Source of the DNA: Treponema sp.
Lineage (GTDB): Bacteria > Spirochaetota > Spirochaetia > Treponematales > Treponemataceae
DNA: 32,705 bases
Assembly (NCBI GenBank): GCA_024699235.1
Contig: JAILPY010000172.1
Location: 1-32,705 of the forward strand
Reading direction: 5' to 3'
The stretch's first letter is position 1. The number at the start of each line of letters is the position of its first letter. The position numbers were made by a program, and so were the translations under genes. The notes under the pieces are model-generated. The model was not told the origin of the DNA, did no database searches, and worked only from the letters and a program-made list of their open reading frames with translations. Of this stretch, positions 5,258 through 25,494 are shown in pieces.

Positions 5258-5869
5258 ATGAAAAAAATCACATTTATTAAATGCAGTACAGTTATATGTG
5301 CAATGTTATTATCATTGATGTTATTTTCTTGTGCAACAACAGAACCTTCTTCAAAGGTTACGCCGGCAAAAGAAAATACTCAGGAACAAACTTCAAAAGC
5401 AGAAACTTCTTCTGAAGAAAAATCCGATAAGCCTGCCCCTGTAAAAGCAGTACCTACCATTACTTATAAAGGAAGAGGAGTAAAAATAGAAGCAGAAGAA
5501 ATGCTTTTGGAAGGAAGTTCGTTATATAAAGACAGCAATGCAAGCAAAGGATATGCAATAAAACTTCCAGAGCATAGCATTGCAAAATGTAAGGTTGTTC
5601 TTTCTCCAGGGACATGGGAATGTCTTGTGAGCGAGCAGGCCTTTAATACTAATAAATCAGAATTATTCGTCAATATTTCAGGAACCTATTATAAAGTTTA
5701 TCCTAGCAATCCTCCGTTAGGCACATGGGAACTTACAACACGCTCACCAATATACATACATCTCGATCAGGAAACAACCTTAAACGTAAGCATTAATGCC
5801 GACAGTCCTTATGAAACAGGTTCAGGGGGAATGAACATTGATTATATACAGTTTGTAAGGACAAACTAA
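5258..5869 (+). CDS. Lipoprotein with CBM6/35-like domain
   Basis: 203 aa. I chose the ATG at 5258 because AGGAG at 5247-5251 sits 6 nt before it; the in-frame ATG at 5252 directly abuts that site. The N-terminus is a lipoprotein signal peptide with lipobox LFSC (Cys about residue 25), followed by a Ser/Thr/Glu/Lys-rich linker to about residue 65. The rest reads as a carbohydrate-binding jelly roll of the CBM6/CBM35 kind: it opens with VKIEAEEMLLEG and a Ser/Asn-Ala-Ser stretch, and closes with MNIDYIQFV, positions where CBM6/35 modules have their EAE and (V)DYI(R/F) motifs. No catalytic domain is present. It is probably a surface or periplasmic lipoprotein that binds a glycan or packs against a partner. 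It lies 16 nt after the helicase gene. The domain assignment is inference from motif spacing only. Confidence 0.75.
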   Translation: MKKITFIKCSTVICAMLLSLMLFSCATTEPSSKVTPAKENTQEQTSKAETSSEEKSDKPAPVKAVPTITYKGRGVKIEAEEMLLEGSSLYKDSNASKGYAIKLPEHSIAKCKVVLSPGTWECLVSEQAFNTNKSELFVNISGTYYKVYPSNPPLGTWELTTRSPIYIHLDQETTLNVSINADSPYETGSGGMNIDYIQFVRTN

Positions 5870-5875
5870 GAATAA

Positions 5876-7012
5876 TCATTTTCCTAAATCAAGCATTCTC
5901 CTGTCATATGAGGCAGGAGGATCTTCAATAATGCTCCAGTCAAAATCAAGAACTCCATGAGGAGGAAACAGAGGTTCTGGCATAGGCTTTTTCCTTAAAT
6001 TATGTTCTTTTACAATATCAATAAGAGACTTTGAACCGTCTGTTAATGTCAGATAAGGTTCTCCAAAAGCACAGATTGTTGCCGTCCTTACAGTATAAGA
6101 ACTTTCCTCTCCGTTCTCATCAATATTTTTTTTATGTACAAGAACTGTATTTAAAGTATAGGTATCAGGTAAAGAAGAACTTTTATCAATGTTCCTTATA
6201 TTATTCCTGCGACCTACAGTACATGTATAAACTTTTCCAGAACTAAGAATATGCTTAGGGACTTTATATGTTGTGTCGCCATCAGTGAAGACAGCTTCAG
6301 CATTCTCATCATACATCATGTCAGTAGACCAATATCTTATGTGATAAACGGCATCTTTTGTAATGTAGTATGAAAGTAATTCTTTAGAAGTTACGGGAGG
6401 ACTTACAAGTATACCATTTGCATTGCCAGTATCTTTCCAGTATCCATCAAGAATATTTTCTGACTGTATGGTAATATCTTTTAGTAATGCACTTTTTGGA
6501 ACAGAATCGCTATCTTCTGACCTTAATGCAAAATTCAAGTAAAGTTTGTTTCCTATAACAGCAATTGGAACATGATACGTATCTTCCCCACCAAGTTTAT
6601 GCCCAGAATACTTTATCTCCATATCCCAGGCACCACTATTTAATGTTTCAGCAGTAAGCAAATCTCCATCAGCCTGAACTACAGCTTTATTAAAAGATTC
6701 TGTATATAACTCGTCTGTCAAAGGCGTAAAATGCAGTTCTATTCTTTCAGGAGAACGAGTTTCTGCATCATTCCTGTCGCGAGGAACAGATTGGGACTGT
6801 TCAGGATTTTCAGCAGCCCTGTCATCATACCACTGGTAAAAAGTCCTAAGAGTGATTGAAGAAGTGTCAAATACCACATACCTGCTGTCATTTTCCCAAA
6901 TTCCACCTAGAAGTTCAGGAACACTTTCATCTACAGAAACAACAGCCTGTGCAAAGCTATGAGAAAAATGAAAAATAATTGTAAATACTATAAATAATAG
7001 AGTCTTTTTCAC
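5876..7012 (-). CDS. Exported protein of unknown function
   Basis: 378 aa with a type I signal peptide (Lys-Lys, then a hydrophobic stretch ending SFAQA) and no further membrane span, so it is predicted to be periplasmic or outer-membrane associated. The mature part opens with LLGGIWENDSRYVVFDTSS and is rich in aromatic and beta-prone residues; I do not recognise a family. It ends LDFDWSIIEDPPASYDRRM. The start is GTG with no Shine-Dalgarno; a GATAAT box lies 6 nt upstream, so a leaderless transcript is possible. It is the last gene of the uvrA-lptD-glycosyltransferase-Wzi-thiI run, 36 nt after thiI. It converges on the CBM-like lipoprotein gene with only 6 nt between stops, and I see no clear hairpin there. 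Confidence 0.8.
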   Translation of the reverse strand: MKKTLLFIVFTIIFHFSHSFAQAVVSVDESVPELLGGIWENDSRYVVFDTSSITLRTFYQWYDDRAAENPEQSQSVPRDRNDAETRSPERIELHFTPLTDELYTESFNKAVVQADGDLLTAETLNSGAWDMEIKYSGHKLGGEDTYHVPIAVIGNKLYLNFALRSEDSDSVPKSALLKDITIQSENILDGYWKDTGNANGILVSPPVTSKELLSYYITKDAVYHIRYWSTDMMYDENAEAVFTDGDTTYKVPKHILSSGKVYTCTVGRRNNIRNIDKSSSLPDTYTLNTVLVHKKNIDENGEESSYTVRTATICAFGEPYLTLTDGSKSLIDIVKEHNLRKKPMPEPLFPPHGVLDFDWSIIEDPPASYDRRMLDLGK

Positions 7013-7048
7013 AATATCATTATCGGAATGTCACCATAACAGCATTAA

Positions 7049-8293
7049 TCAGCGTGAAGAACTGTTTCGATTTGATTCACATATACCGGACTGAGAAGTA
7101 AAAGGCTTTAATGCCCATTTTTCGCCAATTGAGTCGCGAAGGGAAAATCGAATTATCTTTCGCTCATCAAAAGCCTTTAGAATAAGATCATCTACATCCA
7201 TAGACTCATAAATTTTTCTAGATTCTTCAACATCAGCCTTTAATATTGGATGCCTCGGACTGAAGAGTACGCAACAGTCTTCATAAGGCAGAATAGAAGT
7301 ATCATACGTACCGATTTCATGAGCAGTATCCATAATTTCTTCCTTATCAAGTCCAACTAATGGACGCAGAAGAGGATATTCAGCAAAACTTTCTGTAACT
7401 GCCAGATTTTCAACTGTCTGACTGGCAACTTGTCCAAGACTTTCTCCAGTAATAATGCAATCTGCCTGAATGCGAGAAGCAAGAAGATTTGCCGCCTTCA
7501 TCATACACAATCTAAGCATAAGAGTACTGTAGGCTTCTGGAGCTTTTGCTTTAATTTTCATTTGAACATCTGTAAAAGAAATAACATTCAAATGAGTATC
7601 AACTCCATAATCTGCAATAATATGAGCAAGGTCTTCTACTTTTTTTTGAGCTTCTTCGGATGTATAAGGATAAGAATGAAAATATACGCATTCAACTTTC
7701 ATTCCTCTCCTCATCATCCTATATCCAGCAACAGGACTGTCTAAGCCTCCGCTTAACAAAAGAAGACCTTTTCCACTCACACCAACAGGAAGTCCCCTAC
7801 ATGTCTTTTTTTGATCAGAATAAATGTAACAGACATCACGAACTTCTACATGTATAACTATATCTGGATTGTGTAAATCAACAGTAAGAATTCCATTATC
7901 AAAAGCTCCTGCAGCACCTTCTACACATATTTGATACGAATTCAAAGGAAAATTTTTATCTTCCCTGCGAGCTTCAATTTTAAAACTTTTTGCACCTGAC
8001 GCACGAGCTTTCTCAGCAATTTCCTGAACCTTAGTCTTTATGCTATCTATATCTTTAGAAACTGTTGCAACTTTAGCCCATCCTGTAATTCCTATAAGAT
8101 GATCCAAGGCATATTCAACTGCAGTACATGAATCCGAAGAACAAAAGACATACAAACGACCTGCCTGGGTATGAATTTTAGCCTCTACAGACTCGAGGGC
8201 AAGACGAGCATTTTTTACAAGCTGTTTTTCAAAAAATTTTACGTTACTTCCTTTTAAAGTAAGTTCCCCTACTTTTCCAAGATAACATTCCAT
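7049..8293 (-). CDS. thiI: tRNA 4-thiouridine synthase / thiamine sulfur transfer protein ThiI (no rhodanese domain)
   Basis: 414 aa cytosolic enzyme that adenylates U8 of tRNA before sulfur insertion; in many bacteria it also feeds sulfur to thiamine thiazole synthesis. The N-terminal ferredoxin-like region (1-60) begins MECYLGKVGELTLKG, a THUMP domain follows (about 60-165), and the PP-loop is SGGLDSP at 181-187. Family-typical segments are GESLGQVASQT (283-293), ENLAVTESF and PYEDCC (336-341). The protein stops soon after, lacking the rhodanese domain that carries the second catalytic Cys in E. coli ThiI (482 aa). It therefore belongs to the short class, which needs another sulfur carrier. 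It starts 18 nt after the second Wzi-like gene, with GAGG about 12 nt upstream. An RNA-modification gene is functionally out of place in this envelope run. Confidence 0.95.
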   Translation of the reverse strand: MECYLGKVGELTLKGSNVKFFEKQLVKNARLALESVEAKIHTQAGRLYVFCSSDSCTAVEYALDHLIGITGWAKVATVSKDIDSIKTKVQEIAEKARASGAKSFKIEARREDKNFPLNSYQICVEGAAGAFDNGILTVDLHNPDIVIHVEVRDVCYIYSDQKKTCRGLPVGVSGKGLLLLSGGLDSPVAGYRMMRRGMKVECVYFHSYPYTSEEAQKKVEDLAHIIADYGVDTHLNVISFTDVQMKIKAKAPEAYSTLMLRLCMMKAANLLASRIQADCIITGESLGQVASQTVENLAVTESFAEYPLLRPLVGLDKEEIMDTAHEIGTYDTSILPYEDCCVLFSPRHPILKADVEESRKIYESMDVDDLILKAFDERKIIRFSLRDSIGEKWALKPFTSQSGICESNRNSSSR

Positions 8294-8311
8294 ATTTCCA
8301 GACCTCGTTAA

Positions 8312-10105
8312 TCAGAATGTAAAACTCATTCCTATAGTAAAATAATTGTTTACAACGTCATAAAGATTTGCTTTCCAAATATCCTTAAAGTGACGGACTA
8401 GTTCTGCCTGAGTATACCTTGAACTTCCAAGAGTAAATGTTCCATCCCCGTTGTCCGTCAACTTAGATCCCTGTCCTGGATACATATTTGCATCTACACC
8501 CTTATTTCGTATATATTCAAATGTATATCCTAGATTTAAAGCCAATAGTCCCATTTTGAATTTTGGGAATGTATACTCTGCAGATAGACTTGCCTTTATG
8601 ACATACATTTTTGTATCTTGATTCAAGAAATTTAATTGTTCCCAAGCAGTTTCCACATGCTCCCCATCCGAACCGCCAGAATACATCGAATGAGTCAGGA
8701 CACTGCCATCTGTTGCATAAGTTCCAGGAGCAGCAAGCAAATAGCGTATAGCTTCACCATCAGAATCGCTTTCAACTATGTTTGCATGCCTCATAAAACT
8801 TGTCTCAAAATTAAGACGGAAATTCTTTATAGGCCTAAAGCGGATATTAAATGAAAAAATATCACTGTTCGGTTCATACGGCGAACCAATATGGACTCCA
8901 TTATTTGTATAATTCTGGTAATTGTAAATGCCACTGCTGATACTTCCCGTATTAGGACCATCATATTCCCAATGAGAATAAGTATATGGAGTAATCGCAG
9001 TATAGTTAAAGTTTACTAGAGAACAAAAAGATTCTGGTGCATAAAAGATACCGGTTTTTAAGGCAAACCTATTCTTACCGTCAGCATCCAACTTTACAAG
9101 TTTATCAACTTCCATATCATCAACAAAAGCATCAGTTACCCATTCAAGACCATCAAACGGTTTTATTTTAAAAGTAATTCCCATCTGAAGATTATCTTTG
9201 TTGCCGCCAATTCCCTGAGCAGCCATATATGGCACAGGAAGGAAATATGAAAGATCAAAGCGATTTCCATATATTATGTTTTCATAATAGGAAATTGAAA
9301 AATGTTTTGAAAAACGGTATTCAAATGCATGAAATGCCATAAATTTATCAGGAGAAAGACCTGTGCCATCATAACTGGTAGTCGCTCCTATTGCAGAATA
9401 CTGCTGTACATAAGACCATTTATCTTTTAAAAAGGTAATTGTAACATTTGCACTATGATAGTCCTGCTCATTCAAAGCAATTCCATCTCCGAAAAAAGCA
9501 CCATATCCAGTCCTGTTAATTCCTGCCTGAAGAAAAAGATTCCTATTGCCTATAGCTACACCGTTATTTATATCAATGTAAGCAGATAATGGACCTGCAT
9601 CAACAGAATCCTGACGTGCATCATAAGAAGAATTAACAGCATAAGGAAGGAACGTTCCCTCATTTTCTTCTGTCCTAGCAGTAATGCCAAGCTTATATCC
9701 AATAGAAATAAGATCTTTATACAGAAAGAAATCTCCATTTAGATTAGGAGAGAGAATAAACAGTTTTTCAAATTCCTTATCATCATCAGTTTTTGAAAGC
9801 TTACCGACAGTCTGGCCTGATACATTTATATTCCATGCTTTTCCAGTAATTTTCTGCCAGTATTCAATAGCAGTCTTTACATCACTTTCATTACCGCGCT
9901 TTATTACATTCTGTAAAATTTCTTGAATATTATTAATAGGATAAGGTCTCATAGGAGGCACATTATGAACAAGACCCCTTAATTCCCACTCCTGAACAAG
10001 GTCATAAAAATCATCTGTAGGATCTATGCTTATTTGAGCATAAAGAGAAAATGATACAATTAAACAAAATACTAAATAACTGAGGATTTTTTTAATACTT
10101 TTCAC
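8312..10105 (-). CDS. Wzi-like outer-membrane beta-barrel, copy 2
   Basis: 597 aa, GTG start overlapping the preceding gene's end by 14 nt. The signal peptide ends SLYAQ. Residues about 25-95 form a helical N-terminal region with SLH-like phrasing (WELRGLVHNVPPMRPYPINN). The remainder is alternating beta-strand sequence rich in Tyr, Phe and Gly, and it ends NYFTIGMSFTF, a terminal-aromatic beta-signature recognised by BAM. Segments such as FSISYYENIIYGNRFDLSYF, VTDAFVDDMEVD and TAITPYTYSHWEY match the rhythm of capsule-assembly Wzi family proteins (PF14052). In E. coli Wzi binds capsule at the surface. Whether this organism makes a capsule is not shown here. The family call is from memory of the pattern, without a search. 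Confidence 0.75.
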   Translation of the reverse strand: MKSIKKILSYLVFCLIVSFSLYAQISIDPTDDFYDLVQEWELRGLVHNVPPMRPYPINNIQEILQNVIKRGNESDVKTAIEYWQKITGKAWNINVSGQTVGKLSKTDDDKEFEKLFILSPNLNGDFFLYKDLISIGYKLGITARTEENEGTFLPYAVNSSYDARQDSVDAGPLSAYIDINNGVAIGNRNLFLQAGINRTGYGAFFGDGIALNEQDYHSANVTITFLKDKWSYVQQYSAIGATTSYDGTGLSPDKFMAFHAFEYRFSKHFSISYYENIIYGNRFDLSYFLPVPYMAAQGIGGNKDNLQMGITFKIKPFDGLEWVTDAFVDDMEVDKLVKLDADGKNRFALKTGIFYAPESFCSLVNFNYTAITPYTYSHWEYDGPNTGSISSGIYNYQNYTNNGVHIGSPYEPNSDIFSFNIRFRPIKNFRLNFETSFMRHANIVESDSDGEAIRYLLAAPGTYATDGSVLTHSMYSGGSDGEHVETAWEQLNFLNQDTKMYVIKASLSAEYTFPKFKMGLLALNLGYTFEYIRNKGVDANMYPGQGSKLTDNGDGTFTLGSSRYTQAELVRHFKDIWKANLYDVVNNYFTIGMSFTF

Positions 10106-13076: not shown

Positions 13077-16000
13077 CTAAGGATTCAGCTGATATTCACC
13101 ATACTCATCAACGACTTTGGTACGTATGCCAGTCATAGGTTTCCATGTTATGGCAAAAGAAAAATAAGGCTCATAACTATAATAAGGCTTTGAAGAACCT
13201 TCATTGATAAGCCTAGGTTGAAAAATAAAGCTTGAAGTTAAGTCCCAGTCACAAAGATTGTGATTTATATCTATCTTCAATTTTTTTAGTTTAAAGCCAG
13301 ATTTTTTTCGAGTTTTTAAAGATGTATCCCAGAATGCAAAAGAATCTATCAAATCTTGCATAACATTTGTTTCTCCGCCTACAATATTTCCATAAGTTGT
13401 GGCACCTTGTACATAACGGAAAATAACAGAATTTCTTGATTCAGAACTAAATTTTATGTCTAAAAATTCATTTATCCTAAAAGTAACCGAAGGTATGAAT
13501 ACCATATAACTTTCAGTTGGCTTTATGAAATCATATACAAGACTTGTGTCTACTCCAGGAGAAAAACTGATTCTATTTTTCCAATAATGGAATTTTTTTT
13601 CTGAAACATAAGAAAGACTCATTGTATAAGGCTGAAAATATTGATTCTTTTGAGAAACCCAGCCATTTACTTCATCATAGTCGTAGCCATAGGTATGCTG
13701 CATTACGTAAGCCAGCTGAAATCCCTTGAAAGTAGCTGACAGTTTCATAGAATCTGCATAATCTTTCTCTAAGTTATAATTAAAGGATTCCGTTAAGGTC
13801 ATACCTGATTCAGTATATACACTAGCAGACTGCCTAAGAGGCTTATCCGTCCAAGTCTCTCTATTTTCGTCAAGAATAACGCCAGTTGAAAAATTTAATT
13901 TTGCAAAAGGGAATATAAAGGAAACCTTTGCATCACGCTCATCATTAAGCGGCGGCAAAGAAGCAGATAAAGTAACAGTCTGGGAATAATTTTTTCCTTC
14001 TGTAGCAGAAAGATAACCTGTAATAAGATTTTCAGTCATACTTTCCCTGTCTGTCAAATCCCCTGTAAGATATTCCCATTCAGGATTGTCTGCATCACCA
14101 ATAAATTTAGTACGCAAGAGCTTAACTTTAGTACTCCAGTCTATTCCAGTATTTTTAAACAGTGAATCATAGGCAAACGGTCTGAATGAAATAACGTTTT
14201 GCTCTATTAAATCAAGTTTTTTACTGTCATAATCAGATTCTATTACAGAATTTTTAGAAGCCTGCGTCGTGTATCCATCAAGACTAGGGTGCATTTGATA
14301 GGAAGGATCAAAAGTCAATGTATTAGTCATGCTGATAAAGCTTTTTCTATAAGAGACTTTGCTGATCAAGGATACTGGAGATGTAACGACATAATAAGAA
14401 GAGTACATATTAGACCACTTAAAATCAGATCCCTGTTCAAACTGAGATGAATTATAAGTAAACTGCGAAACGTAACTAGGTTTTATTGAATATCCAAGAC
14501 TATAATAAAGGCCTTCTATGGCTGTAACAGAAGGAAGTTTTTCGCCATCTAAATCAGGCAAATCTTTTGCTTCAAATAAGAAATCAAATTCTCTTTGATC
14601 ATTTGATTCATAAGATTCTTCATCATATACAAATTCAGGTTCTTTTTCTGGCGAAGAACGAAATTCATAGAATGTACCTCCAATTTCCATTGAAAATTCA
14701 AAAGGAGTAACCTGGGATGGATAAAAGAACATTCGTTCTGGAGAATACGACTGCCAATCGAATGACTCTTCGGTAAAATCTTTATCCGTACGTTTCTTTG
14801 AATTAAATATCACAGAGGAAGATACTTTATTTACATCTATTTTATTAATGATTGACGGACTTTCAGTTTTAACAGGCATTGAATAAGAACCTTCAGCCTT
14901 CCATGTATATGTAGTAACTTTTTTATCACTGTCATCTGTATTTTTTTGCTCATCAGTAACTTCACTGCTAGACGTAAGAAAACCTATCCAATCCATAGTT
15001 TCCTTTCTATTTCCAAAATCTGTAATAAAATAAGGATCTGAATACAAAGGAAAATCAAGTTGAAGCCTAAAAGGTTCTTTTACAGTCATGCTAAAGTTAC
15101 CGGCAAAACGGAAAGGAAATGAATTTCCAAGGAAATTAGTTCGGTCATAAAAAATTTTATTAAGATAAGAATATCTGCTGAATTTATCTTTTCTATAAAA
15201 TACAGTATTACTAAATCCTAAGTCAAAGAAACCTGATATCTTTGAAATATATTTATCAGGGGAAAATGAACCGTCAATTCCGACAAGACCGCCAAACATA
15301 GAATATGCATCTGCCGTAAGCTTTAAATAGTCATCAGTAGAACCCGTAAAATCTTTATCAAGATTATGAAGTACAACACCTTCCCTTCGCTGTTCCTTCA
15401 AGGTAGTCTGATGTGCAAAGCTAAAGGATATATCATCATCATCGTCGTCGTCTGAAGATTTGGAAGATTTTGCAGAATCATCCTCAAGAGGCTTTCTACC
15501 GTATAAATATGTTGTAGTCTGAAAATACCAGCCTTTACGGTTATCATATCCTATGACAGGATTAAAGATAAGTTCATCTTTAGGATAATAGAATGCAGGA
15601 AGATACAATACTGGAACATTCCCAACATACAGCGCTGCATTGAGAAAAGCAAATTCTCCTCCTGCAAGCATCCACATTTTAGTAGCCCTAATTTTCCAAT
15701 GAGGATTCTCTTCTTTACAAAATGTAACGGTAGCATTTTTAAAAGCCATTGCTCCGCTTGAAGTCTTTCCCGTCAGTTTAGACGTTACGACAATTGTAGA
15801 TGAAGCTGTTACCTTTCCACTTTCTATCTTTACAATACGGGAATTATCAAAAACTCCTTCCATCGAACTAGTATTTAACAGAAGTGTTTTTGCCGTAATA
15901 TCCTGCTTTACAGCACCATCTTTACCTTTCTGCACAAGACGAACATTTCCTTCTGCAAAAAGCATATTTGTCTTTCTATTGTATCTTATTTTATTTGCTT

Positions 16001-16220
16001 TTATATCTGTATCATTTTCATTATCTGATACAGTCATGGACACATTGCCTGTCATTACAATAAGTTCATCACCAGTATCATCATCTTTCTGATACTCAGT
16101 CTTACGTGCATTATTAATAGTAATGACAGTACCTGCTTTAGATTCCTGGGCAGGACAGGATTGTGAGAAAGTGAGGGCAAGACATACAATCAGTAACAGT
16201 CTTTTTAGTTTATTGAGCAA
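13077..16220 (-). CDS. lptD: LptD/OstA-like outer-membrane assembly protein
   Basis: 1047 aa, TTG start overlapping the uvrA stop by 11 nt with AAGGA just upstream. A signal peptide covers about the first 24 residues. An OstA/LptA-like jelly-roll follows (about 33-230), with the repeating pattern IKANKIRYNRKTNMLFAEGN and ITAKTLLLNTSSMEG. Then comes the barrel, beginning near LYLPAFYYPKDELIFNPVIG, a region diagnostic of LptD, and containing an Asp run (DDDDDDD) in an early loop. It is longer than E. coli LptD (784 aa). LptD inserts LPS into the outer leaflet in proteobacteria. Treponemes generally lack canonical LPS, so the cargo here is probably another glycolipid. From memory, T. pallidum also has its LptD homologue (TP0515) next to uvrA, which supports conserved synteny. 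Confidence 0.9.
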   Translation of the reverse strand: MLNKLKRLLLIVCLALTFSQSCPAQESKAGTVITINNARKTEYQKDDDTGDELIVMTGNVSMTVSDNENDTDIKANKIRYNRKTNMLFAEGNVRLVQKGKDGAVKQDITAKTLLLNTSSMEGVFDNSRIVKIESGKVTASSTIVVTSKLTGKTSSGAMAFKNATVTFCKEENPHWKIRATKMWMLAGGEFAFLNAALYVGNVPVLYLPAFYYPKDELIFNPVIGYDNRKGWYFQTTTYLYGRKPLEDDSAKSSKSSDDDDDDDISFSFAHQTTLKEQRREGVVLHNLDKDFTGSTDDYLKLTADAYSMFGGLVGIDGSFSPDKYISKISGFFDLGFSNTVFYRKDKFSRYSYLNKIFYDRTNFLGNSFPFRFAGNFSMTVKEPFRLQLDFPLYSDPYFITDFGNRKETMDWIGFLTSSSEVTDEQKNTDDSDKKVTTYTWKAEGSYSMPVKTESPSIINKIDVNKVSSSVIFNSKKRTDKDFTEESFDWQSYSPERMFFYPSQVTPFEFSMEIGGTFYEFRSSPEKEPEFVYDEESYESNDQREFDFLFEAKDLPDLDGEKLPSVTAIEGLYYSLGYSIKPSYVSQFTYNSSQFEQGSDFKWSNMYSSYYVVTSPVSLISKVSYRKSFISMTNTLTFDPSYQMHPSLDGYTTQASKNSVIESDYDSKKLDLIEQNVISFRPFAYDSLFKNTGIDWSTKVKLLRTKFIGDADNPEWEYLTGDLTDRESMTENLITGYLSATEGKNYSQTVTLSASLPPLNDERDAKVSFIFPFAKLNFSTGVILDENRETWTDKPLRQSASVYTESGMTLTESFNYNLEKDYADSMKLSATFKGFQLAYVMQHTYGYDYDEVNGWVSQKNQYFQPYTMSLSYVSEKKFHYWKNRISFSPGVDTSLVYDFIKPTESYMVFIPSVTFRINEFLDIKFSSESRNSVIFRYVQGATTYGNIVGGETNVMQDLIDSFAFWDTSLKTRKKSGFKLKKLKIDINHNLCDWDLTSSFIFQPRLINEGSSKPYYSYEPYFSFAITWKPMTGIRTKVVDEYGEYQLNP

Positions 16221-19247: not shown

Positions 19248-19598
19248 TTAATCAGAGGACTTATTTAAGAGAAGGATGTTCTTAATTCCAGAAACCAATT
19301 CTCCTACACTATCAAGAGATGCTGCAAGACTCAACTTATAGTATATGCTGGTTCCTACCTTATGAGGCTTTATAAGACCGCAATCCTTCAAGACCTTCAA
19401 GTGATGAGAAATTGCAGGACGAGACAATTTTGACATGGAACTCAAACTGTTAACATTTATTCCGTTTTTATCTGTACTTTCAACAGTACCAATATCAAGA
19501 ATCAGTTTCTGACGGACTTCATCTCCTAATGCAATAAAAAGCGGAGAGCATGAAGTAAATAATGAAGAAATGCGTTCTATTTCCGATTTATCTGCCAT
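19248..19598 (-). CDS. ArsR-family winged-helix transcriptional repressor
   Basis: 116 aa. The winged helix is clear: LSSMSKLSRPAISHHLKVLK forms the HTH and recognition helix, followed by CGLIKPHKVGTSIYYKLS as the wing. The alpha-3 metal site typical of ArsR/SmtB (ELCVCD) is absent: the corresponding residues are INVNSLSSM, with no Cys. It is therefore probably not a classic arsenic or zinc sensor; one Cys lies after the recognition helix. AGGGG sits 8 nt before the ATG. It is divergent from the RND permease gene, and a perfect 15-bp-arm palindrome lies between them. By position it most likely represses itself and the downstream transport genes. The effector is unknown. Confidence 0.9.
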   Translation of the reverse strand: MADKSEIERISSLFTSCSPLFIALGDEVRQKLILDIGTVESTDKNGINVNSLSSMSKLSRPAISHHLKVLKDCGLIKPHKVGTSIYYKLSLAASLDSVGELVSGIKNILLLNKSSD

Positions 19599-19778: not shown

Positions 19779-22733
19779 ATGAAGTTTCTAAAAGCTTTTT
19801 TCAGGCATCCAACAATAATTGTTGTATTATGCCTGGCTGTAACAGGATTCTTCGGATTCTTTTTAAAGGATCTTTCCCTAAGTAATTCAACCAGAATGTT
19901 TTTTCCTCAGAAAGATGAGTCATATACAAGGCTTACAGATACAGAAGAAACATTTGGAAGCATGCTTTCAATCGGAATAAGTCTTGAAGCAAAGGAAGGA
20001 ACTATCCTTACTCCAGAATACATTGAAGTAGTAAGGAAAATTACTGATCGGGTATACGCCCTTAAAGACGTAGAAGACATTGATTCTTTTACAGACATTG
20101 ACTACGTATGTGACCAGGACGGTTCTATATCTGCAACACAACTTATTCCAGAGACATACACAGGATCTCCTGAAGACATAGCACAGTTATCTACCCGCCT
20201 GTCAGAATGGGACAGCATGTACAACAGAGTAATTGTAAATGATACTTTTACAGGCACTCAAATTGCAGTATCTCTCTGTCCTAAGGGAGACGAACAGATA
20301 GCATTCGACAAAGCCAAAGAAAATCTTGATGCTGCCCAGGAAGCTTTCAATGCAGAAAATAATGCAGATACTCAAGCAGCACTTGCAACAGCAAAAAAGG
20401 AATACAAAGATGCCAAAAGAGTCCTGAGATTCGCACCTCCAGATTCAGAACGCCAGCAAAAGGTTCTTGAACAGGTAAAGGAAATTACCAATGAAGAATG
20501 CAAGGGACATGAACTTATATACAAGTTCTACGGAGACCCTGTAATTTCAGTAACTTCAAAAGAATTCATGGTATCGGACTTACTTGGCCTTATTCCTCTT
20601 GTTGTAGTAATAGTAATATTAACATTATATTTCAGTTTCCATACGTTCACAGGAACATTCCTGCCACTTTTAACAGTACTTATGTCAACTGCAATATCAT
20701 GCGGAATGATGGGTATGCTTCACATTACGTTCTCACTTGTTTCTAGAGTCATTCCGGTTGCACTCATAGCTGTAGGTTCTGCTTATGGAATTCATGTTCT
20801 GACACATTATTATGTAGAACTTACTAACGTAGAAGGTGATGTTTCCAGAGAACAGCAGCAGGAAGCAATATTTAAAGGCCTAAGAGAGGTATGGAAGGCT
20901 GTACTCCTTGCAGGACTTACTACCATTGTAGGCTTTGTATCTCTTGTTACAAGTCCAATTGAACCTCTTCACAGCTTTGCAATCTTTACAGCAATCGGCG
21001 TAGCCCTTGCATTATTCTTCTCTGTAACATTCATCCCAGCACTTCTCCTTATGCTTCCATGTAAAGAAGCAAACAAAAAGCGCAGGATGTTTGGATTTAC
21101 AGACATGGTAAAAAGGCAGGTTGCACGTGCCCAGCAGATGAGAGGCGGCCGCTCTGCCAAAGAAGCCAGCGGTGATACCCTTTACATAATTTACCGCTTT
21201 TTCTGCGGTTCATGGGTAAGACTCATCATTACATCTCTTTTTATCATAGTTTTGTCATTCACAGGACTAAGTAAACTTAAAATTGATACATCTTTGATTG
21301 GATACTTCCCAAAAAGTTCTCAGATGAGAAAAGACATAGACTATGTAAATGAAGAGTTTGCAGGAACAAACAGCGTATACTTTAACATTGAAGGCAAAGA
21401 AAAGGGTGACATTACAAATCCAGAACTTTTAGTAGCTGTAGATCATATGCAGCAGTACCTTCAAAATAAATATGACATAATTGGAAAGATGGTCTGCCTT
21501 AATGATTTCATCAAAAGAATAAACCAAGTATGGCACGCACCTTCAGATACAGGACATTTAATTTCTTCAGAACAGTCAGATTTCGATACAACAGAAAGTC
21601 TAGACAGTTGGGGAGACATAGGATTTGAAGATAGCGAAGAAGATGCTACACTCGATTCATGGGGCAGCAGTTTTGAAGAATCTAGTTCTTCTGATGCAGA
21701 ACTAGATTCTTGGGGAAGTGAATTTATAGAAGAAGAATCTGTAGCTGAAACACAGGACTCTGATTACGAAGATCCTAATATAATTTACAGTCAGCGCCTT
21801 TCTGAAACTCTGACGGCAAGGCAACTGCTTGATTTAATGAACCAGGCATACATTGCTGCAGGCGGTAAATATGCAACTCTAGATAAGATGATTGACTATC
21901 TTATGGGAGAAATCAACTATAATGGTATGGCATATTATGAAATACCTTACAATCCTGAAAAATATCCTGTAGCGACACGTGAACAGCTTTCTGAAGTTGT
22001 AAGCAATTATCTGACACTGCTGAGCGGTTCTTTGGAAAGATTTATAGACGATGACATGAATCCAAAAACAATGCGCATTACATGCCAGTTGAGAACTCAT
22101 TCAACAGAACTTGCCAGCCACATCATCAATGATGCTAAACTGTATGCAGCAGAACACTTTCCTGCCGGTTATACGCTTGAAGCAACAGGTACAGGAGAAA
22201 TGGAATATACAATGACTAGCCTTGTTGTAAAAAGCCAGTTCTCAAGCCTTTTAGTTTCACTTTTGTCAGTATTTATAATTATTACCATCTCTTTCAAATC
22301 AGGATGGGCTGGTATTTTAGGAGCTGTTCCTCTAGCCTTTGCAATCTTGCTTAACTACATGACAATGGGTTTTGCAAAAATAAACCTAGATCTTATTACA
22401 AGTATAATTGCATCTGTAACAGTAGGCGTTGGCATTGACTATACAATACACTTCCTCACTACTTACAGAGAAGAACGCTCTAAAACAAATAATCTGGAAG
22501 AAGTAACAAAACAGACGTTTAAAAAAAGCGGTCATGGAATATTAACGAATGCACTTGCTGTTGGATTAGGATTCCTTGTACTTTGTCTTTCAAAGTTCGT
22601 TGTACTGAAATATATTGGAATTCTTGTTGCAATAGTTATGTTTACTTCAGCATTCCTTGCAATGACAGTCATTCCTGGAGTATTGAATCTTACAGATCCA
22701 ACATTCATGCATCCTGAAGATAAAAAAAAGTAA
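19779..22733 (+). CDS. RND/MMPL-family membrane transporter
   Basis: 984 aa, AGAGG 9 nt before the ATG. The layout is a typical RND duplication: TM1 (about 10-30), a periplasmic porter loop with a coiled-coil-like Ala/Lys/Glu stretch (about 165-215), five TMs (about 265-430), a cytosolic linker, TM7 (about 480-500), a second periplasmic loop, and five TMs (about 820-970). The sterol-sensing-like and second-half segments VALIAVGSAYGIHVLTHYY and VTVGVGIDYTIHFLTTY are characteristic of MMPL/HpnN-type lipid transporters. The second loop carries an acidic Ser/Asp/Glu insert (about 595-662) with three LDSWG motifs starting at residues 608, 625 and 642, exactly 17 apart. Followed by LolA-like and barrel genes, it probably moves a lipid or hydrophobic compound across the periplasm, driven by proton motive force. 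Substrate unknown. Confidence 0.9.
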   Translation: MKFLKAFFRHPTIIVVLCLAVTGFFGFFLKDLSLSNSTRMFFPQKDESYTRLTDTEETFGSMLSIGISLEAKEGTILTPEYIEVVRKITDRVYALKDVEDIDSFTDIDYVCDQDGSISATQLIPETYTGSPEDIAQLSTRLSEWDSMYNRVIVNDTFTGTQIAVSLCPKGDEQIAFDKAKENLDAAQEAFNAENNADTQAALATAKKEYKDAKRVLRFAPPDSERQQKVLEQVKEITNEECKGHELIYKFYGDPVISVTSKEFMVSDLLGLIPLVVVIVILTLYFSFHTFTGTFLPLLTVLMSTAISCGMMGMLHITFSLVSRVIPVALIAVGSAYGIHVLTHYYVELTNVEGDVSREQQQEAIFKGLREVWKAVLLAGLTTIVGFVSLVTSPIEPLHSFAIFTAIGVALALFFSVTFIPALLLMLPCKEANKKRRMFGFTDMVKRQVARAQQMRGGRSAKEASGDTLYIIYRFFCGSWVRLIITSLFIIVLSFTGLSKLKIDTSLIGYFPKSSQMRKDIDYVNEEFAGTNSVYFNIEGKEKGDITNPELLVAVDHMQQYLQNKYDIIGKMVCLNDFIKRINQVWHAPSDTGHLISSEQSDFDTTESLDSWGDIGFEDSEEDATLDSWGSSFEESSSSDAELDSWGSEFIEEESVAETQDSDYEDPNIIYSQRLSETLTARQLLDLMNQAYIAAGGKYATLDKMIDYLMGEINYNGMAYYEIPYNPEKYPVATREQLSEVVSNYLTLLSGSLERFIDDDMNPKTMRITCQLRTHSTELASHIINDAKLYAAEHFPAGYTLEATGTGEMEYTMTSLVVKSQFSSLLVSLLSVFIIITISFKSGWAGILGAVPLAFAILLNYMTMGFAKINLDLITSIIASVTVGVGIDYTIHFLTTYREERSKTNNLEEVTKQTFKKSGHGILTNALAVGLGFLVLCLSKFVVLKYIGILVAIVMFTSAFLAMTVIPGVLNLTDPTFMHPEDKKK

Positions 22734-22772
22734 AAAAATGATTATGACGTGTAACCTTTTATCGGTCTATTC

Positions 22773-22788
22773 GTTTAATCTTTTGAAC
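22773..22788. promoter_or_regulatory. Operator 3, upstream of the LolA-like gene
   Basis: GTTTAATCTTTTGAAC, the third GTTTAA-N4-TTGAAC copy, 14 of 16 bases identical to operator 2. Its right half TTGAAC could act as a -35 box with TATAGA at 22808-22813 (19-nt spacing), so an internal promoter repressed by the same regulator is plausible. Confidence 0.6.
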
Positions 22789-22796
22789 ATTAAATA

Positions 22797-22822
22797 AAAC
22801 AGGCTTTTATAGATGCCTGTTT
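22797..22822 (+). other. Stem-loop in the leader of the LolA-like gene
   Basis: Perfect 8-bp stem AAACAGGC (22797-22804) / GCCTGTTT (22815-22822) with a 10-nt loop, ending 4 nt before the AAAGGAGA ribosome site. The U-tract is too short for a strong terminator; it may protect or tune the downstream message. Confidence 0.5.
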
Positions 22823-22842
22823 ATATAAAGGAGATTTTACTT

Positions 22843-23646
22843 ATGAAAATTACTTCTAAACTTTTAACAATTGCAGTACTTGCCCTCGCAGGAACAACAG
22901 TAGCGTTTGCTGACCAACAGGGTACAGACATCATGCAGAAAGCAAAGGACCTGGAAAAACCAAAGTTCTCACATTCTCTTGTAGAAATGGTTTTGACAGA
23001 AAAAAACGGAACAAAAGAAGTTCGTGCAGTCGAAGAATATGGAAGAAATCATGATGACGGAAAGGGAAACAAAGTAAATGATGTTACAATGCTCTTCCTT
23101 TCACCAGCAAACATAAAAAACACACGCTTCCTTCAGAAAGAAAACCATGGAGCAGATGATGATAAATGGATTTACTTACCTGCACTAAAAAATACACGCC
23201 GCGTAAATTCAAGTGAAGGCAGCAAGTCATTTATGGGAACTGATGCAACTTATGATGACCTTTCTACCCGTGAAATTGAAGAAGATGATCACCAGTATCA
23301 GGGAGAAGAAACAAAGAAAGTTGGCCCAACAACCTTTGAATGCTATAAAATAAAGGAAGTTCCTTATGACAAGAAAAGCAGTCAGTATAGTTATCGCATT
23401 ACATGGGTAGATAAGGCAACTTACGTTCCTGTTTATACTGAAATGTATGACAAGAACGAAAAGCTTATCAAAGTTCTTGAAGTTCCTGTTATCAAGAATA
23501 TAAGTGGATACACAATTACAATGGCAACAAGAATGACAAATGTACAGACAGGTCATTCAACAACAATTACAATAAAAAAACTTGAGCTTGACAAGCCTAT
23601 TCCTGAGCGTGTATTTACATCTCAGTTCCTTAATACGGGAAAATAA
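22843..23646 (+). CDS. LolA-like periplasmic protein (outer membrane lipoprotein-sorting family)
   Basis: 267 aa. Start at 22843 because AAAGGAGA (22827-22834) lies 8 nt upstream and the signal peptide then begins normally (MKITSKLLTIAVLALAG, cut at AFA|DQQ). The mature protein matches the LolA_like family (PF17131-type): DKWIYLPALKNTRRVNSS, KSFMGTDATYDDLSTREI, YRITWVDKATYVPVYTEMYD and a final VFTSQFLNTGK. These proteins have the LolA/LppX half-barrel that holds acyl chains, and they commonly neighbour RND/MMPL pumps. Here it sits between the permease and the DUF1302-like barrel, so it likely shuttles the pump's hydrophobic cargo across the periplasm. Operator 3 and a stem-loop lie in its leader. 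Confidence 0.9.
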   Translation: MKITSKLLTIAVLALAGTTVAFADQQGTDIMQKAKDLEKPKFSHSLVEMVLTEKNGTKEVRAVEEYGRNHDDGKGNKVNDVTMLFLSPANIKNTRFLQKENHGADDDKWIYLPALKNTRRVNSSEGSKSFMGTDATYDDLSTREIEEDDHQYQGEETKKVGPTTFECYKIKEVPYDKKSSQYSYRITWVDKATYVPVYTEMYDKNEKLIKVLEVPVIKNISGYTITMATRMTNVQTGHSTTITIKKLELDKPIPERVFTSQFLNTGK

Positions 23647-23666
23647 TTTATAAACAACCATAATAT

Positions 23667-23703
23667 GGCTGTCTAAATAAAAGATTTAGGCAGCCTTTAT
23701 TTT
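23667..23703 (+). terminator. Intrinsic terminator or attenuator before the barrel gene
   Basis: Stem GGCTGTCTAAAT (23667-23678) / ATTTAGGCAGCC (23684-23695) with one G-U pair and a 5-nt loop, followed by TTTATTTT. It stands between the LolA-like stop and the barrel's AGGAGG, so it must allow read-through or the barrel needs its own promoter, of which I see none. Confidence 0.7.
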
Positions 23704-23721
23704 CATGCAGGAGGACTTTTA

Positions 23722-25494
23722 ATGAAAATCACAAGAGTTGCAGCAGTTTTAGCACTCGGAGTATTATTCACATCTGCAGCATTTGCCCAATTTGATGATG
23801 ATAACTGGGATTCATGGGATGATGATCTAACAAACTCTTCGGTAAGTGACGAAGAAGATTCATTTGGTTCTGACGATTCATCAGGTTCTGATGATTCTTT
23901 CGGGTCTTTTGATGATGATTCTTTTGGCTCTTTTGATGATGATTCTTTCGGTTCTTTTGATGATGATTCTTTCGGTTCTTTTGATGACGGAGATTCTTTT
24001 GGTTCTTTCGGTGGAGATGATTCTTCATCTTCCCCATTAACATTCAGCGGAGACCTTTCTTTAAATACAAGGTATTATTTTGCAAAAGAAGAATCTGACG
24101 AATTCTTAAAAGGTACCAGAAATACTACAGGTGCACGTATTTTTGACCGCGATTCTAATGGAGACCGCATTCATTTTTATGATACCACATTAAAGGCAAT
24201 TCCAAAGGCTAAAATTGGAGTAAATTATTCAGGCTCAATGAGCGAAGCTATCCTTTCTGTAAATTTAACAGAACAGACTTTAAAAGACTATCACGAAGAT
24301 ATTATAGATGAATTAGTTATCCGAGGTTATTTTCTTGACAACGCTTTAACTATTGAAGGCGGCAAGATGAAAATTGTATGGGGAAAAGGTGATAAGCTCC
24401 ATGTATTGGATAATTTCAATTCTGATGATTATACAGATTTTATTATTCCAGATTATATAGACAGAAGGATAAGTACTCCAATGCTTAGGGCTGTCTATAG
24501 CCAACCTACAGCAAGTGCACTTACATTAGAAGGAGTTTTCACTCCATTTCTTCCAAAAGATCGCTTTGCAGAAGAAGACAGCATATGGATTCCTGCTGCT
24601 TATAGGACATTGTCTTCAACTGTAAAAACAATCATTGCAGCAAACGTTGTTTCTGGAAAAATGTCCTTGACAGATGCAGCTCAATTTGATTCTGACGATT
24701 TATATCCAGATGTATATAATTTAAAATATTCACAGGCAGGACTGCGTCTTACAGGAACAGCTTCTTCTTTTGACTGGGGAATAAGCTATTATTACGGACA
24801 CTATAAGCAGCCTTCTGCAAATGCAGAAGAAACTGTTACAATGGCAAATCTTTCAACATTATTGCCTGCTGCAATGGCATCTGGCAATGCATCTGAAATT
24901 GCAAGACTTCAGAAACTATATGCAAAATACAATTCAAGCGGAATTTCACTTCCTAAATTAGAATACGATAGAAAGCAGACATTCGGAATTGAAGCGGCAA
25001 CAGTACTTGGAAGATTCAATCTTCGTGCAGAAGCGGCTTATAACCTTACAGACGACTTTTCTGGTACAGATCCTTGGGTACACAATAATTCTTTGGGATG
25101 GCTCATCGGATTTGATATGGACATTCCTATAAGTAACATAAACATAAATGTACAGCATATAGGTTCATACATCTTAAAAAATGACCAGCTTGCAAAAGGC
25201 ATATTCAAAACTTATGATGTCGATTATGATCCTAAAGGTCGTTACACAAATGATAAAATAGTACTTAATATCACAGATTCATTAATGCACGATAAGTTAA
25301 AGCCAGAAGTAACGTTATTATGGGGAATTGAACGCGGAGATTTAGTCATCCAGCCAAAACTTGCATACAGTCCAACTCCGGAACTTACAATGACATTAAG
25401 CGGAATGTATATTTACTGCAGGGATGAATTCAGTGAATTCTATGAATGGAAAAATAACGATTTTGTAAATCTAGGCATACGATACCAGTTCTAA
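23722..25494 (+). CDS. DUF1302-like outer-membrane beta-barrel with acidic tandem-repeat N-terminus
   Basis: 590 aa. The signal peptide ends SAAFA|QFDDD; AGGAGG lies close before the ATG. Residues about 20-105 are a very acidic, Ser/Phe/Gly-rich segment: NWDSWDDD, then tandem units of DDDSFGSF (residues about 56-96). The rest is beta-strand sequence with DUF1302-type signatures: GGKMKIVWGKGDKLHVLDNF, a D-Y/F-rich stretch and RRISTPMLRAVYSQP, then LEGVFTPFLP. It ends VNLGIRYQF, a terminal-aromatic signature for BAM insertion. DUF1302 barrels are known to co-occur with LolA-like proteins (DUF1329) and RND pumps in proteobacteria. This is the presumed outer-membrane end of the neighbouring transport system. 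The acidic head would lie in the periplasm or plug the pore. Confidence 0.85.
   Translation: MKITRVAAVLALGVLFTSAAFAQFDDDNWDSWDDDLTNSSVSDEEDSFGSDDSSGSDDSFGSFDDDSFGSFDDDSFGSFDDDSFGSFDDGDSFGSFGGDDSSSSPLTFSGDLSLNTRYYFAKEESDEFLKGTRNTTGARIFDRDSNGDRIHFYDTTLKAIPKAKIGVNYSGSMSEAILSVNLTEQTLKDYHEDIIDELVIRGYFLDNALTIEGGKMKIVWGKGDKLHVLDNFNSDDYTDFIIPDYIDRRISTPMLRAVYSQPTASALTLEGVFTPFLPKDRFAEEDSIWIPAAYRTLSSTVKTIIAANVVSGKMSLTDAAQFDSDDLYPDVYNLKYSQAGLRLTGTASSFDWGISYYYGHYKQPSANAEETVTMANLSTLLPAAMASGNASEIARLQKLYAKYNSSGISLPKLEYDRKQTFGIEAATVLGRFNLRAEAAYNLTDDFSGTDPWVHNNSLGWLIGFDMDIPISNININVQHIGSYILKNDQLAKGIFKTYDVDYDPKGRYTNDKIVLNITDSLMHDKLKPEVTLLWGIERGDLVIQPKLAYSPTPELTMTLSGMYIYCRDEFSEFYEWKNNDFVNLGIRYQF
23890..24009 (+). 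repeat. 24-bp in-frame tandem repeat
   Basis: About five copies of a 24-nt unit encoding D-D-D-S-F-G-S-F, with only third-position differences between inner copies; the first and last units are diverged. Being in frame, gain or loss of units would change length without breaking the protein. Confidence 0.85.

Follow-up and report, generated by a model that had tools for sequence, protein, structure and literature searches.

An inner-membrane permease and an outer-membrane beta-barrel encoded in one operon of Treponema sp. share an acidic-aromatic motif that covaries between the two proteins, a finding that we regard as solid. An earlier note on this DNA had proposed a functional motif common to the pump and the barrel. 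The proposal was well supported, and the motif was found far beyond the window (the whole stretch of 32,705 nucleotides analyzed here), in Treponema and related spirochaetes. The note's further suggestions, that the segments may bind the LolA-like protein or calcium and may tether components of the two membranes, are treated here as candidate readings. Because the tails match and change together, pump and barrel may both offer a docking place to a common partner, the likeliest candidate being the carrier whose gene lies between theirs.

The operon and its products

Three genes of the window, running in one direction, form an operon encoding an MMPL permease, a LolA-like carrier of PF17131 and an outer-membrane beta-barrel (Table 1). 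Membership of the permease in the MMPL/RND family was indicated by its PF03176 match (E = 2.4e-43; 148.8 bits against a curated cut-off of 20.5), while its TIGR00921 (HAE3) score of 240.2 bits fell below the curated cut-off of 351.9, making it related to that model without being a member by it. The permease fold was judged on the orthologue L241, for which Foldseek returned matches to MmpL4, MmpL5, MmpL3 and HpnN. The carrier reading frame opens at 22813, with a canonical signal peptide from the ATG at 22843. It belongs to LolA_like (PF17131, E = 6.3e-59; 199.2 bits against a cut-off of 30), and its closest solved structure was 9tp6, LolA3 of P. gingivalis (TMt 0.87-0.92). The third product was assigned as an outer-membrane beta-barrel from its signal peptide, its beta-barrel model and its C-terminal aromatic residue, which is Phe in 138 of 143 orthologues. 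No Pfam family matched the window barrel or the scanned orthologues, and it did not fall into DUF1302.

Two other genes of the window were noted. An ArsR-family regulator, a candidate transporter regulator, lies divergently upstream of the operon (19248-19598, minus strand), and a 1047-aa protein (13077-16220, minus strand) weakly matched an LptC-related Pfam entry (21.4 bits against 21).

Table 1. Features of the operon, in positions of the window
Feature	Position	Strand	Basis or remark
Inner-membrane permease, MMPL/HAE3-type RND, MmpL fold, 984 aa	19779..22733	+	PF03176, TIGR00921, Foldseek of L241 orthologue
Site B of periplasmic loop 2, about residues 539-544; empty in window permease	21393..21410	+	Coordinates hand-counted
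Site A insert of periplasmic loop 2, disordered acidic-aromatic, about residues 590-676	21546..21806	+	Disorder: orthologous L241 insert
LDSWG copy 1, residues 608-612	21600..21614	+	
LDSWG copy 2, residues 625-629	21651..21665	+	
LDSWG copy 3, residues 642-646	21702..21716	+	
LolA-like periplasmic carrier	22843..23646	+	PF17131; closest structure 9tp6
Conserved basic/aromatic carrier segment, candidate docking surface	23116..23271	+	Function inferred
Outer-membrane beta-barrel, C-terminal Phe beta-signal, 590 aa	23722..25494	+	AlphaFold barrel, porin-like Foldseek matches
Mature N-terminal barrel tail, residues 23-103, disordered acidic-aromatic repeats	23788..24030	+	pLDDT <50 until first strand
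NWDSWDDD, Trp motif of barrel tail, residues 28-35	23803..23826	+	
24-nt tandem array coding DSFGSFDD, 4.9 copies, 90% matches	23889..24008	+	Tandem Repeats Finder

The motif in the window

The placement of LDSWG at residues 608, 625 and 642 of the permease, and of NWDSWDDD and tandem DSFG at the mature N-terminus of the barrel, as given in the earlier note, was exact. The DSWG codons begin at nt 21603, 21654 and 21705, and DSFG occurs six times in the barrel tail, at residues 46, 58, 66, 74, 82 and 91. When the 90-aa insert was shuffled 20,000 times, at most one DSWG was obtained (three observed), and shuffles of the barrel tail gave at most three DSFG (six observed). Throughout the window's own genome, the DNA pattern coding for DSFG had 38 forward matches against 37 for its reversed control, with the window as the sole cluster; the pattern coding for DSWG had 13 matches, three of them in the window.

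The 24-nt array of the barrel is a recent tandem expansion. Tandem Repeats Finder detected no DNA repeat over the LDSWG region, and the LDSWG copies differ in their codons (Ser is AGT, TCA or TCT). In the close relative L077, whose permease is 86% identical, the corresponding peptides are DSWE, DSWG and TSWG at other spacings. The 17-residue period of LDSWG pointed out earlier is therefore present in the window but incidental, and a functional role for the exact period was ruled out. The exact letters of the motif drift; what is conserved is Phe or Trp in an acidic, Ser and Gly context.

Both segments had been expected to face the periplasm and to lie outside the usual folds, which our analysis supported; both were also predicted to be disordered. 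The insert of the L241 permease model (538-596) had a pLDDT of about 30-39 and lay between the helices before and after loop 2, and this position, combined with the known topology of MmpL proteins, indicated that it faces the periplasm. The AlphaFold model of the window barrel was likewise disordered from the tail to the first strand. The suggestion that the carrier be modeled with its partners was pursued with two AlphaFold chains, namely LolA-linker-barrel (an in-frame read-through of the window) and permease-LolA (L241). Judged without coordinates or PAE, the folds were clear, the tails were disordered and no ordered docking was seen. The conserved segment of the carrier was of low confidence in the LolA-barrel chain and confident in the permease-LolA chain, two chains that differ in species and alignment.

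Retention and relocation among orthologues

Orthologues were drawn from 80 named loci and from whole genomes, which supplied about 100 further loci; the two sets overlap. The acidic-aromatic-Gly insert was present in 123 of 130 non-redundant permeases, at site A in 95 and at site B in 28 but never at both, and was weak or missing in seven; before redundancy removal, 166 permeases gave 123 at site A, 36 at site B and again none at both. Site B lies about 60 residues upstream of site A, in a different loop of that periplasmic domain, and arose in three places on a tree built from the permease core after removal of the loops. The insert was thus relocated yet retained, indicating that what is kept is the motif and not its location. 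An artefact of alignment slicing had made many permeases look as though they lacked the insert, which in these proteins sits at site B.

In nearly all barrels, the motif begins no more than about 20 residues past the signal peptide. All 94 non-redundant pairs had one or more motif aromatics in both proteins (a loose test), and 90 had two or more in both. The remaining barrels, L153, L203, L184 and L257, scored low; in those of L153 and L203 a clear DDWG is present but was undercounted by the score, and that of L257 has DLSFAGS only. We judged the L184 barrel (QFDELEQ; a weak single match) to be truly without the motif, while its permease has DSFFADS. Pairs in which one partner keeps the repeats and the other lacks them, with no pattern, had been named as evidence against a shared motif; this was sought and not found, L184 being the only real lack.

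The two paralogous permease-carrier-barrel sets of the window genome, G000:C193 (L075) and G000:C97 (L076), have no motif in either permease or barrel. Three distant permeases (L195, L196 and L201) were also without it, and the L195 barrel, inspected by eye, lacks repeats as well. In the genomes of L271, L124, L129, L143, L148 and L122, a barrel lies beside a second LolA paralogue, away from the permease set, yet the motif is kept; some of these genomes have two permeases.

Specificity across genomes

As low-complexity protein searches for other carriers of the motif were insensitive, DNA patterns were used. Across 146 genomes of the genus, the DFGDFG pattern had 57 sites, against five for the reversed pattern. 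When the sites were assigned by their coordinates, 46 of them fell within the permeases or barrels of this system; 20 regions were read to place unplaced sites, and the site in G453, which was unread, was counted as outside. Many unrelated proteins with the same motif, the other counter-evidence named in advance, were looked for and not found. Three of the outside sites lie in acidic linkers of large TPR proteins (L294, L301 and L310) and were judged incidental.

Covariation between the two tails

Covariation was determined for 88 non-redundant pairs with conserved flanks trimmed, using independent contrasts on the permease-core tree. Trp was found in neither tail of 68 pairs, in the barrel only of one, in the permease only of three and in both of 16 (Fisher, 1e-13), and its contrast r of 0.58 was not reached in any of 20,000 permutations, although the exact P values of this trimmed run need caution because the trimming rules were written after the untrimmed result. 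Contrast r was 0.40 for Phe-Phe, 0.37 for aromatic-Gly, and 0.31 for both Asp-aromatic and aromatic-x-x-aromatic; covariation of Ser-aromatic and of Glu fraction was not significant in these contrasts of 88 pairs. Mean contrast r was 0.32 for the same features and -0.04 for different features. The earlier run with untrimmed flanks exhibited the same diagonal pattern with weaker values, and a sign-flip test there was significant for aromatic-Gly and Asp-aromatic and borderline (0.07) for Trp and Phe-Phe. Common 4-mers of the two tails amounted to 0.209 within pairs and 0.072 between pairs, a level not attained in 1000 shuffles, in a comparison that ignores phylogeny. Raw r exceeded contrast r, which indicated that part of the resemblance of the tails follows phylogeny. 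The flavor of the motif covaries between permease and barrel beyond phylogeny.

The candidate partner and its alternatives

We gave about an even chance to the reading in which the two tails are one short linear docking motif, read by a common periplasmic partner that is most likely the LolA-like carrier. Such a motif would consist of Phe or Trp set in Asp, Ser and Gly, usually repeated, on flexible tethers. The MmpL-type permease would hand a hydrophobic cargo, such as a lipid or a similar molecule, to a carrier kept close by the loop-2 tail; once loaded, the carrier would cross the periplasm and be caught by the matching tail of the barrel, which would pass the cargo to the outer membrane. 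The tails would covary because one pocket binds both, so that a change in the pocket would force both tails to change. The fuller proposal, that a single shuttling carrier reads a fast-drifting address motif which is common to pump and barrel, changes as a covarying set and is able to shift from one pump loop to another, we rated slightly below even. That the partner is the carrier is inferred, as are the kind of cargo and the direction in which it travels.

The two tails are strongly acidic, with hardly any Lys or Arg (mean net charge -13 and -7), and the simplest reader would therefore be a third surface, partly basic and partly hydrophobic. The carrier is the operon's only soluble product. 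Its candidate docking segment (residues 102-153, 277-aa numbering) contains eight conserved basic residues, K102, R105, K118, K126, R129, R130, K138 and R153; overall, the carrier is near neutral, with a median pI of 6.6. In the all-Trp clade, conserved columns changed at 9/64 in the carrier versus 1/205 in the permease core (p = 1e-5); changes include L107S, R130P and K138Q/S, and several lie inside the segment. The barrel core of this clade changed too, at 6 of 51 conserved columns, and thus the carrier is not singled out. A column-association scan for the partner placed the strongest associations in the carrier and the barrel of the all-Trp clade, mostly within that one clade. A positive potential around the opening of LolA3 of P. 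gingivalis, reported in PMC13103446, was counted in favor of the carrier. Against the carrier, both AlphaFold chains left the tails disordered, the residues changed in the all-Trp clade lie in a segment conserved throughout the family, including 9tp6, and in some genomes the permease and barrel adjoin different LolA paralogues.

Covariation would be explained equally well if the motif bound a third protein from another locus, for example a chaperone of the periplasm, an assembly hub or a hub attached to peptidoglycan, and aromatic-x-aromatic patterns resemble chaperone-binding peptides. However, searches of the genome, at the sensitivity they had, gave no other acidic-aromatic carriers, and the motif-free paralogous barrels of the window genome argue against a general chaperone signal; we consider a third protein rather unlikely. 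Self-recognition would yield covariation as well, and the tails could stick together or condense in the manner of cohesive FG tails, either by themselves or bridged by divalent cations, tethering permease to barrel. The same composition on both sides, the FG-like repeats and the predicted disorder agree with this, FG dipeptides being present in the tails and FG cohesion a candidate property only. Acidic tails with almost no Lys or Arg should nevertheless repel each other, which makes direct sticking unlikely without a bridge; some tails have a single motif (e.g. QDDWGSDE), too few for condensation; and bridging by cations is opposed by the near absence of RTX calcium repeats (GGxGxDxUx nonapeptides), with canonical GG.G.D in 2 of 176 tails, and by only six matches to EF-hand-like patterns. 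Cohesion of the tails is therefore an unlikely explanation.

Pump and barrel might also dock directly, the carrier being uninvolved, with the barrel tail as a ligand of the permease or barrel core and the permease insert as a competing internal copy. This would explain why one ligand is present twice, once in cis and once in trans, and the changes in the barrel core of the all-Trp clade point the same way, but the nearly unchanged permease core of that clade does not, and moves between two loop-2 sites are easier to explain with a mobile partner; we regard direct docking as very unlikely. Finally, the inserts could share no binding at all and be low-complexity sequences drifting in parallel through genome-wide composition or gene conversion. 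Repeats do expand easily, as in the 24-nt array, and part of the resemblance is phylogenetic. Yet the contrasts were feature-specific with no cross-feature correlation, the two genes use different codons for the same peptide, the motif is concentrated in these genes rather than genome-wide, and it was retained through relocation, which leaves parallel drift highly improbable.

The docking reading bears on how cargo is handed over from MmpL-type pumps to the outer membrane without a rigid conduit. A covarying address motif would name the contact points and predict which tails can be exchanged between species. The motif could also help to recognize such systems by sequence throughout the spirochaetes, oral and rumen treponemes among them.

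Comparison with known systems

Short acidic-aromatic docking peptides on disordered tails are known from the C-terminal tails of SSB and from clathrin-type motifs. Those are cytoplasmic and belong to unrelated proteins, and the DDIPF ending is absent from the tails described here. In the literature searched, no account was found of bacterial envelope transport proteins that share a covarying motif of this kind.

The closest described architecture is AmeABCD of Castellaniella defragrans, in which, according to the available part of PMC6394551, an HAE3-type RND pump, a LolA-superfamily periplasmic protein and an outer-membrane protein are likewise encoded together. AmeABCD as described there includes AmeC as a further periplasmic protein, and its barrel belongs to DUF1302, whereas the spirochaete operon has one periplasmic gene and a barrel without a Pfam family; that part of the source mentions no shared motif. 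The spirochaete operon works like an AmeABCD-type system but is not a member of it.

The MmpL/HpnN lipid transporters have the same permease fold by Foldseek. The long acidic-aromatic insert in loop 2 is, in contrast, disordered and variable in position in our system, and the partners of MmpL4/5 are MmpS and AcpM. The locus L198 (about 5862-9324), whose neighbors are flagellin and metK-like genes, is probably TP0789/TP0790 of T. pallidum. TP0790 and TP0789 are the orthologous permease and carrier, with one degenerate motif (TDDFGVF), decayed, and no adjacent barrel. In PMC8407342, TP0790 was modeled as AcrB, joined by a MacA-like adaptor and by TolC-like factors; the LolA-like neighbor and the MmpL fold of the orthologues suggested another kind of pathway, and the AcrB-type model may misassign it.

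The LolA-LolB pathway and LolA3 of P. gingivalis (9tp6) have the same carrier fold and a two-membrane shuttle with specific pairing, and LolA3 binds LolB only weakly, as reported in PMC13103446. Classical LolA meets LolB mouth-to-mouth, whereas the disordered tails of the pump and the barrel are the proposed addresses in the spirochaete system.
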